Shown here: one piece after another, positions 15,363-17,034 of the stretch
Numbering within the stretch: position 1 is the first letter of the stretch
Layout of the letters: each line of letters starts with the position of its first letter
Virus record (IMG/VR): IMGVR_UViG_3300032240_002097
Location: 1 to 26,060 of that record
Direction: 5' to 3' (one strand)
DNA length: 26,060 nt
Source of the DNA: a virus
Translations under genes and position numbers: made by a program
The notes under the pieces: model-generated
Databases searched by the model: none
What the model was told of the DNA's origin: nothing
The model's input: only the letters and a program-made list of their open reading frames with translations

Positions 15363-15689
15363 CTATATTTTAAAACTCTCACCGCACCCACAACGAGCAA
15401 CTTCGTTTGGATTGGTGAATTTGAATCCTTCATTAAGCCCTTCTCTAGCCCAGTCTATTTCTAATCCTGCTAGATACAGCTCGTCTTTAAAGCCGACTAA
15501 TAATACAAAATCAGGGTGACCATAGTTAGTGACTCCTGGTTCTGCTTCATATCTGTCTACGTATTCCATGACATAAGAATATCCCGAACATCCGGTGTTC
15601 TTAACACCAAGTCGTATTCCTACGCCAGTTCCACGCTTTTCAAGCTGCTGCTTTATTTTCTTACTGGCTTTGTCTGTTACGGTAATCAT
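15363..15689 (-). CDS. iscA: IscA/HesB-type Fe-S cluster assembly protein
   Basis: This 108-aa A-type Fe-S carrier or scaffold protein has the family's three cysteines in place: C34 in the NTGCSGYSY motif, and C100 and C102 in the terminal CGCGESF. These ligate iron or a transferred [2Fe-2S]/[4Fe-4S] cluster in a dimer. Length and start (MITVTDKASKKIKQQLEKRG) are normal for the family. A-type carriers receive clusters from IscU-type scaffolds and pass them to target enzymes. The gene overlaps the 3' end of iscU by 29 bases, so the two are almost certainly co-translated; the ribosome site (AAAGGC) is weak and lies inside iscU. It is the last gene of the SOD/Isc operon and converges on the structured element at 15274-15361. 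Single IscA/HesB genes are known in T4-like cyanophages. A phage iscU beside it is less usual. Confidence 0.92.
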   Translation of the reverse strand: MITVTDKASKKIKQQLEKRGTGVGIRLGVKNTGCSGYSYVMEYVDRYEAEPGVTNYGHPDFVLLVGFKDELYLAGLEIDWAREGLNEGFKFTNPNEVARCGCGESFKI

Positions 15690-16044
15690 GTATTGCTGCC
15701 TTTATTGCATCTTCCGCAAGTATTGAACAGTGGATTTTAACGGGGGGCAGCGCAAGCTCTTGGGCGATATCAGAATTTCTGATCTCAGTGGCTTGTTCGA
15801 TTGTTCGCCCTTTGAGCCACTCTGTGACGAGGCTGCTTGATGCGATTGCGGATCCGCATCCGTACGTTTTGAATTTGGCATCTTCAATGACTCCTAGATC
15901 ATTTACCTTTATTTGTAACTTCATAACATCGCCACAGGCAGGTGCTCCCACCATACCTGTGCCGACATTAGGTTCATCTTTGGCAAAGCTACCTACGTTA
16001 CGAGGATTTTCGTAATGGTCTAGAACTTTGTCACTGTAAGCCAT
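15661..16044 (-). CDS. iscU: IscU/NifU-like Fe-S cluster scaffold protein
   Basis: This 127-aa protein starts MAYSDKVLDHYENPRNVGSF, the classic IscU N-terminus. All active-site residues are present: C37 and D39 in GAPACGDVM, C63 in YGCGSAIASSS, and H105/C106 in the LPPVKIHCS motif, which is also the chaperone (HscA) recognition segment. IscU is the scaffold on which [2Fe-2S] clusters are built from iron and persulfide sulfur supplied by the cysteine desulfurase IscS. The full set of residues argues for a functional scaffold rather than a remnant. No iscS, hscA or fdx gene is in the window, so host partners would be needed. Its ATG shares one base with the stop of the 39-aa gene (TAATG), and its end overlaps iscA by 29 bases. 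Confidence 0.93.
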   Translation of the reverse strand: MAYSDKVLDHYENPRNVGSFAKDEPNVGTGMVGAPACGDVMKLQIKVNDLGVIEDAKFKTYGCGSAIASSSLVTEWLKGRTIEQATEIRNSDIAQELALPPVKIHCSILAEDAIKAAIHDYRNRQSQ

Positions 16045-16163
16045 TATTCACCCTTTTTAAAGAGTCCTTTGACTTTGTCTTCTAGTGCTACTGCCCAAGA
16101 AGGTTGTGGAAAATGCCAACCGATAAAAGCGCCGATTAGAATTAAGATAATTGATTCGATCAT
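16044..16163 (-). CDS. 39-aa single-pass membrane peptide
   Basis: A short gene (ATG 16163-16161, stop 16046-16044) is supported by a strong AAGGAG ribosome site eight bases upstream and by one-base overlap (TAATG) with iscU. The peptide starts MIESIILILIGAFIGWHFPQ. Residues 4-16 form a hydrophobic helix, followed by PQPSWAVALEDKVKGLFKKG, an amphipathic basic tail. The predicted topology is a short N-terminus outside with the basic tail in the cytoplasm. I recall similar peptides with a GW.FPQP.WA motif in other T4-like marine phages, without function. Its place between a secreted protein and IscU in a tight operon makes it a real gene. The role is unknown; a membrane anchor or modulator of the neighbouring proteins is speculation. 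Confidence 0.8.
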   Translation of the reverse strand: MIESIILILIGAFIGWHFPQPSWAVALEDKVKGLFKKGE

Positions 16164-16174
16164 TTTATTTCTCC

Positions 16175-16456
16175 TTAATTTTGTACTAAAACATTTCTGT
16201 AACAGTTACAGCCCGCATCTAGGATTGTTTCATAATGATATCCTACTGGCGGGTATTGATATACCACCGGTGGTTGCGGTTGTACATAAACTGTTCTTGG
16301 TTGTGTCAGAGCGTATCCTACCGCTCCTCCGATAATCAAAGGTGCTACCCAGTTATAATTACCTCCACGATAATACCCACCGTGTTGGTGATGCCAACCA
16401 TCAGCGAAAGCTGGGGTTGCCATTAGCATACTTAGTACGAGTGCTAATTTTTTCAT
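16175..16456 (-). CDS. Secreted/periplasmic His- and Tyr-rich small protein
   Basis: The start is taken at ATG 16456-16454 because AAGGAG lies six bases before it and because it yields a textbook signal peptide (MKKLALVLSMLMATPAFA, cleaved before DGW). An upstream in-frame ATG at 16480 would add eight residues inside the SOD gene. The precursor is 93 aa and the mature form about 75. The mature part has a His/Gly/Tyr-rich segment (DGWHHQHGGYYRGGNYNW), a glycine-zipper-like hydrophobic stretch (VAPLIIGGAVGYAL), a Pro/Gln/Tyr/Val segment and a CNC motif near the end. The ATG follows the SOD stop by one base (TAACATG). It probably acts in the periplasm or outer membrane. The His cluster and CNC could bind metal, but this is inference. 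It is unlike the phage spanins I know and has no lipobox. Confidence 0.8.
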   Translation of the reverse strand: MKKLALVLSMLMATPAFADGWHHQHGGYYRGGNYNWVAPLIIGGAVGYALTQPRTVYVQPQPPVVYQYPPVGYHYETILDAGCNCYRNVLVQN

Positions 16457-16457
16457 G

Positions 16458-17021
16458 TTATACTCCTTGTAAACGGTCATTTACTATAGACCAGTCAACG
16501 ATACGCCAAAAGTTATTAAGGTACTTGTCTTTGGCTGCTTGGTAGTCTAGAGCCCAGGCATGCTCCCACCAGTCGACCAACAGAGCGATACGAGTTGGGT
16601 CTCCGGTAATATTGTGGTTCTTGATAGTCTTGATCTCGCCTTGGCGGTCCATGAATATCCAACCACTACCCTGTATAGTCATAGCTATCTTCAAGAACTC
16701 TTCCTTGAAGCTGTCGTATGACTTATATTTTCTTTCGATTAGTTCTTCCGCAGCACCAAACGGACGGTTAGCACCGCCAACTGGCTTTAATTGTGCGAAA
16801 TAGATGTTGTGTAAGACTGCTCCGCCCTTGTTGAATTCTGCGTCGCCTTCGCCCGAATTGTAACGATCGACGTAGGCTTTGGCTAATTTGCCATAGTGAT
16901 AGTCTAGTGTTTGTTCACTTAGTACTGGATCAAGTTCAGTCTTTTTGTAGGGCAAAGGTTCTTGCCTTAATTTATGATCTGCTGCTTCTACCAGATTGAT
17001 GTATGTTTTGAAATCCTTCAT
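16458..17021 (-). CDS. sod: Fe/Mn-type superoxide dismutase
   Basis: This 187-aa protein converts superoxide to O2 and H2O2. The four metal ligands are present: H42 (LDYHYGK), H71 (GAVLHNIYF), D150 and H154 (DWWEHAW). Gateway Tyr50 (AYV) and the C-terminal family signature (YLNNFWRIVDW) are also present. The second-sphere His usually four residues after the first ligand is Leu46. Position 67, four before H71, is Gly rather than the Gln of bacterial FeSOD, and the NHN at 135-137 places His136 about where MnSOD has Gln. This arrangement recalls archaeal or cambialistic SODs, so metal choice is uncertain. The protein is about 15 residues longer at the N-terminus than usual. The extension (MKDFKTYINLVEA) resembles a T4 capsid-targeting sequence. 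It is the first gene of a five-gene operon with a late-type promoter touching its ATG. Confidence 0.93.
   Translation of the reverse strand: MKDFKTYINLVEAADHKLRQEPLPYKKTELDPVLSEQTLDYHYGKLAKAYVDRYNSGEGDAEFNKGGAVLHNIYFAQLKPVGGANRPFGAAEELIERKYKSYDSFKEEFLKIAMTIQGSGWIFMDRQGEIKTIKNHNITGDPTRIALLVDWWEHAWALDYQAAKDKYLNNFWRIVDWSIVNDRLQGV
16986..17021 (-). other. Putative capsid-targeting and prohead-protease cleavage sequence of SOD
   Basis: Codons 1-12 of sod encode MKDFKTYINLVE, followed by AADHKL. T4 internal proteins start MKTYQEFIAEA, and T4 prohead protease gp21 cuts after (L/I)-x-E. The phage SOD has the same Met-Lys start, alternating aromatic/hydrophobic spacing and an LVE|A site. Cleavage would leave the normal SOD fold beginning just before LPYKK. 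This is an inference from motif likeness. Confidence 0.5.
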
Positions 17022-17026
17022 GTAAA

Positions 17027-17034
17027 TATTTACC
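17027..17034 (-). promoter_or_regulatory. Late-type promoter GGTAAATA for the SOD/Isc operon
   Basis: GGTAAATA on the minus strand ends six bases before the A of the SOD ATG. With T4-late spacing (last A at -6) the first transcribed base would be that A, a leaderless mRNA. No Shine-Dalgarno motif precedes the ATG. The site abuts the opposing site at 17035-17042 without a gap. Confidence 0.5.

Follow-up and report, generated by a model that had tools for sequence, protein, structure and literature searches.

Gene content of the locus and identity of the encoded superoxide dismutase

We analyzed a viral DNA stretch of 26,060 nucleotides (IMG/VR virus record IMGVR_UViG_3300032240_002097, positions 1 to 26,060; hereafter the window), focusing on a reverse-strand row of genes that encodes a superoxide dismutase (SOD), a signal-peptide-like small protein, and IscU and IscA homologues (15363-17021(-)). 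The following features were assigned:

16458..17021 (-): phage Fe/Mn-type superoxide dismutase precursor, 187 aa plus stop
16986..17021 (-): N-terminal leader MKDFKTYINLVE (residues 1-12), predicted capsid-targeting propeptide
16983..16988 (-): predicted prohead-protease cut between Glu12 and Ala13
16461..16985 (-): predicted mature SOD, residues 13-187, inferred from the predicted cut
17027..17032 (-): T4-type late-promoter core TAAATA, 5 nt before the ATG
16175..16480 (-): next gene downstream of SOD, a short protein with a signal-peptide-like start (MKKLALVLSMLMATPAFA), overlapping the SOD 3' end
15661..16044 (-): IscU/NifU-N-like Fe-S scaffold, no extra leader
15363..15689 (-): IscA/SufA-like Fe-S protein, no extra leader

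The product of 16458-17021(-) is an Fe/Mn-type SOD: Profile searches gave matches to both Pfam domains above the cut-off (PF00081, Sod_Fe_N, 9e-11; PF02777, Sod_Fe_C, 1e-22), and the four metal ligands (H42, H71, D150, H154) as well as the gateway Tyr50 are invariant in 33 phage relatives. Additionally, an AlphaFold model of the protein (mean pLDDT 90.9) matches solved SODs best, with the 50 best PDB matches all being SODs. In comparison with E. coli SodB, Bacteroides SodFM2, and Sulfolobus FeSOD, the fold, the four metal ligands, and the gateway Tyr are shared. However, the phage SODs form a separate clade that is about 31-37% identical to the cellular SODs found, has a shorter core, and carries an invariant His (His136) in an NH motif where many MnSODs have Gln. 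Moreover, all 33 phage SODs compared have Leu (Leu46) at the place of the usual second-sphere His30, which is common but not a metal ligand. As fold and ligands are the defining features, membership in the SOD family stands, but metal choice and rate may be unusual and activity is not assured.

In the window protein 22 residues precede the LPY that opens the SOD core. Cellular SODs found in bacterial genomes, plasmids, and the PDB align mostly from about residue 22-23, with a few starting earlier, so that about 15-16 residues are extra, in agreement with the original prediction of about 15 additional N-terminal residues. In the model, the first ten residues are of low confidence (mean pLDDT 48, residues 1-5 below 50), so the leader is probably flexible and exposed. 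The co-located IscU and IscA homologues provide an internal control: Both match their families from residue 2 (NifU_N, 2e-52, residues 2-126 to profile positions 1-125; Fe-S_biosyn, 5e-14, residues 2-103) and have no such extension, i.e., the leader is specific to SOD. SOD, IscU, and IscA homologues lie together with a UvdE endonuclease in many relatives.

A conserved cleavage motif in an otherwise variable leader

The original prediction had proposed that the leader is a capsid-targeting sequence as found in T4 internal proteins and that it is removed by the prohead protease. In T4, gp21 cuts after L/I-X-E, and the first 10 residues of IPIII suffice for packaging, with residues 4 and 7 being most important for targeting and residues 8 and 10 for processing (PMC9026906). 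The T4 sequences start with MKTYQEFIAE↓A in IPII and IPIII, as the original prediction had quoted, and with MKTFKEF...ITE↓A in IPI, where the arrows mark cut points placed by the published rule. The window leader MKDFKTYINLVE↓A fits this scheme: LVE↓A lies at residues 10-12↓13, MKDFKTY matches IPI MKTFKEF at positions 1, 2, 4, and 5, and aromatic residues occupy positions 4 (F4) and 7 (Y7) as in IPI (F4 and F7) and IPIII (Y4 and F7), although this does not hold for all shorter relatives.

To examine whether this resemblance extends beyond one sequence, we scanned a collection of viral contigs, which yielded 472 relatives, and read the best 80 of each of two searches plus one more locus. Of 100 distinct phage SODs with a readable start, 98 have [LIVMF]xE in the leader. 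Of the two others, one (locus L213) has it too if an upstream ATG is the start, while the other (locus L190) lacks it; a further exception, locus L045, is not among the 100 because its leader is very short. In the 98 sequences, P3 is L in 65, I in 25, V in 7, and F in 1, and P1' is A in 59, G in 27, and S in 4. The leader comprises 12 residues in the window and 8-16 in nearly all relatives. On a tree of 99 cores, P1 needs a single change (L190), P3 needs 16 and P1' 11, and the remaining leader positions need 20-47. Sequences selected for the motif necessarily show E at P1, so the unselected figures, with P1' left free, are the ones that count: Besides the 98 of 100, in 33 representatives below 80% core identity, including the PA5oct group, [LIVMF]xE is found in the leader of 33 (shuffled leaders: mean 7.9, maximum 17 in 2000 trials) and [LIV]xE[AGS] in 30 (mean 0.9, maximum 5). 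Other SOD hits from the phage collection (freshwater and faecal contigs) gave no usable control, as one sits among bacterial-type metabolic genes and two records are unannotated.

Protease, late promoter, and possible virion association in related phages

We searched relatives for a gp21-type (S77) protease. Peptidase_S77 was found in all seven large relative contigs with a gp23-type capsid gene (contigs G004, G009, G011, G014, G016, G024, and G030), of which G004 carries a SOD 89% identical to that of the window. Two further large contigs (G025 and G026) have neither gene, so the head module is probably absent from these fragments; likewise, no protease was found in the window, which is itself only a 26-kb fragment. 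S77 proteases are also present in the Callisto and Vibrio 2.275 genomes, and the aligned proteases share the DHP and SSRGSG segments that probably hold the catalytic His and Ser. Vibrio phage 2.275 shows, however, that a phage with an S77 protease can have a SOD without an N-terminal leader (locus L087:5968-6537). This SOD instead has a C-terminal tail, MLDE↓SVNIRHLINFISK, that resembles a mirrored tag, but C-terminal motifs are not enriched in that genome (20 vs 16.9).

The core of the late-type promoter of the original prediction is likewise present: TAAATA, the core of the T4 late promoter, lies 5 nt before the SOD start in the window and 4-5 nt before the start codon in 63 of 98 SOD genes. 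The same spacing forms a sharp genome-wide peak in G004, G009, and G014 (loci L098-L146; 14/240, 19/426, and 20/432 ORFs) but not in PA5oct, and the genes concerned include those for terminase large subunit, head-tail adaptor (neck), and tail tube. As T4 late promoters place the TATA box about one helical turn before the start of transcription (PMC2988020), we infer that these mRNAs would begin at or next to the AUG, suggesting a class of leaderless late mRNAs.

Evidence for an association with virions comes from a distant relative, the cultured phage PA5oct (genus Wroclawvirus), in which the late-promoter placement is not shared. Its homologous SOD (EST35_0261; PQE65_gp223), annotated only as a hypothetical protein, is 37.6% identical and starts with MNDSIKKYISIAE↓AASS. 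In the GenBank records this gene carries the note ESI-MS/MS, as do exactly 93 CDSs, including capsid, portal, and tail proteins. Structural proteomics of PA5oct has been stated to have been done (PMC6950013), whereas work on phage MIJ3 identified only four structural proteins. The mark alone does not prove packaging: Soluble enzymes without an evident leader (ribonucleotide reductase, thymidylate synthase, GTP cyclohydrolase, DNA ligase, and ClpP) as well as QueD and FtsH carry the same note (loci L090 and L092-L097), which reflects either carry-over or wider enzyme packaging, so that co-purification remains a live alternative.

A possible virion-internal superoxide dismutase

In relatives, the conservation of the motif and the presence of a protease came out in favor of the original prediction, whereas the ESI-MS/MS mark leaves the presence in virions open. 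Taken as a whole, we consider it likely that the gene encodes the precursor of a virion-internal SOD, which is made late from a T4-type late promoter and whose first 12 residues are predicted to take the enzyme into the prohead core. The S77 protease of the phage would then cut after LVE, freeing a SOD that starts at Ala13 and stays in the head with the DNA. Packaging and cutting are inferred but probable, ejection with the genome is plausible, and a protective role, in which the enzyme removes superoxide around the incoming DNA and the first phage proteins, is hypothetical.

The closest known systems are the T4 internal proteins IPI, IPII, and IPIII, with which the SOD shares a leader of 10-20 residues with an MKxF/Y start, aromatics at positions 4 and 7, a site of the (L/I)xE type, and an S77 protease in the same phages, as far as relatives show. 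The T4 cargoes are small phage-specific proteins (IPI is an anti-restriction inhibitor), whereas here the cargo would be a metalloenzyme, and leaders across the SOD family vary more in length (about 8-23 residues) and sequence. T4 Alt, an ADP-ribosyltransferase, is likewise an enzyme in the head that is cut by gp21 after ITE at residue 6 and ejected at infection (PMC5694885, PMC9026906), but it is unrelated, is also cut at its C-terminus, and acts on host proteins. SODs are also among the proteins reported in virions of giant eukaryotic viruses (PMC9405923); these belong to the Cu,Zn-SOD family where a structure is cited (Megavirus), and no prohead-protease leader is known to us.

Among the alternatives, one is a sub-case that differs only in the last step: The leader targets SOD to the prohead core, but the enzyme acts only during assembly or storage, protecting DNA and head proteins in the particle, and is not injected. 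The packaging evidence is the same, but this appears unlikely, as the T4 IPs and Alt are ejected with DNA (PMC9026906, PMC3012670). Slightly less likely still, the SOD may be an ordinary late-expressed auxiliary enzyme that acts in the infected cell together with IscU and IscA to protect Fe-S clusters and phage replication, with the leader having some other role (partner binding, localisation) and SOD in virion preparations being carry-over. The recurrent proximity to Fe-S assembly and UV-repair genes and the ESI-MS/MS marks on untagged metabolic enzymes of PA5oct speak for this view. It does not explain, however, why [LIV]xE↓[AGS], exactly the gp21 rule, is the fixed part of a fast-changing leader, or why the leader is absent from the cellular SODs found; IscU and IscA, in the same place, lack leaders. 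Finally, an accidental LxE in a chance extension, although shuffled leaders match the loose form of this short motif about a quarter of the time, is refuted by the comparison with shuffled leaders described above.

Phage SODs have been read as auxiliary metabolic genes acting in the infected cell (PMC12542629), and no paper was found with the phrases searched for phage SOD. If they are virion cargo, the enzyme is present before any phage gene is expressed, which suggests that superoxide at entry, or during extracellular storage, limits phage fitness. It would also make a packaging signal readable from sequence, namely a fixed [LIV]xE↓[AGS] at the end of a variable N-terminal leader that cellular homologues lack, and this comparison can be run on other enzymes to find virion cargo in uncultured phages.

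We also wondered whether a large, mostly uncultured group of jumbo T4-like phages might deliver an active SOD, and perhaps other tagged enzymes, as first-minute metabolic or anti-ROS effectors, in which case the capsid-targeting sequence would be a general enzyme-delivery system of jumbo phages rather than mainly an anti-restriction system. This reading remains tentative, and the general claim that many jumbo-phage proteins bear such tags is only weakly supported by counts: N-terminal [LIV]xE[AGS] was in about twofold excess in three jumbo relatives (17 vs 8.7, 27 vs 15.4, 28 vs 13.1), but [LIV]xD[AGS] was in similar excess (19 vs 8.0, 24 vs 15.5, 23 vs 15.7). In PA5oct, [LIVM]xE[AGS] starts are commoner among ESI-MS/MS proteins (10/93 vs 7/268, p=0.003; control residues D, K, S, Q, and N not significant), yet a stricter [LI] version gave p=0.085 and the motif without the P1' residue gave no enrichment. 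A 140-aa protein without a match to a Pfam or PHROGs family (L126:1270-1692(-)) starts with MYRKYINIVE↓AANKG, nearly the same leader as that of the window SOD. Individual candidates are nevertheless striking: Unrelated proteins of jumbo relatives (L118:17994-18878(-), L125:12576-13694(-), L142:18846-19397(+), L109:16012-16392(+)) share starts resembling the T4 capsid-targeting sequence (MRLRHLFE↓A cytidylyltransferase, MRAFEFLTE↓S DUF6267, MRASDFITE↓A DUF6321, MRAHEFITE↓A unknown).
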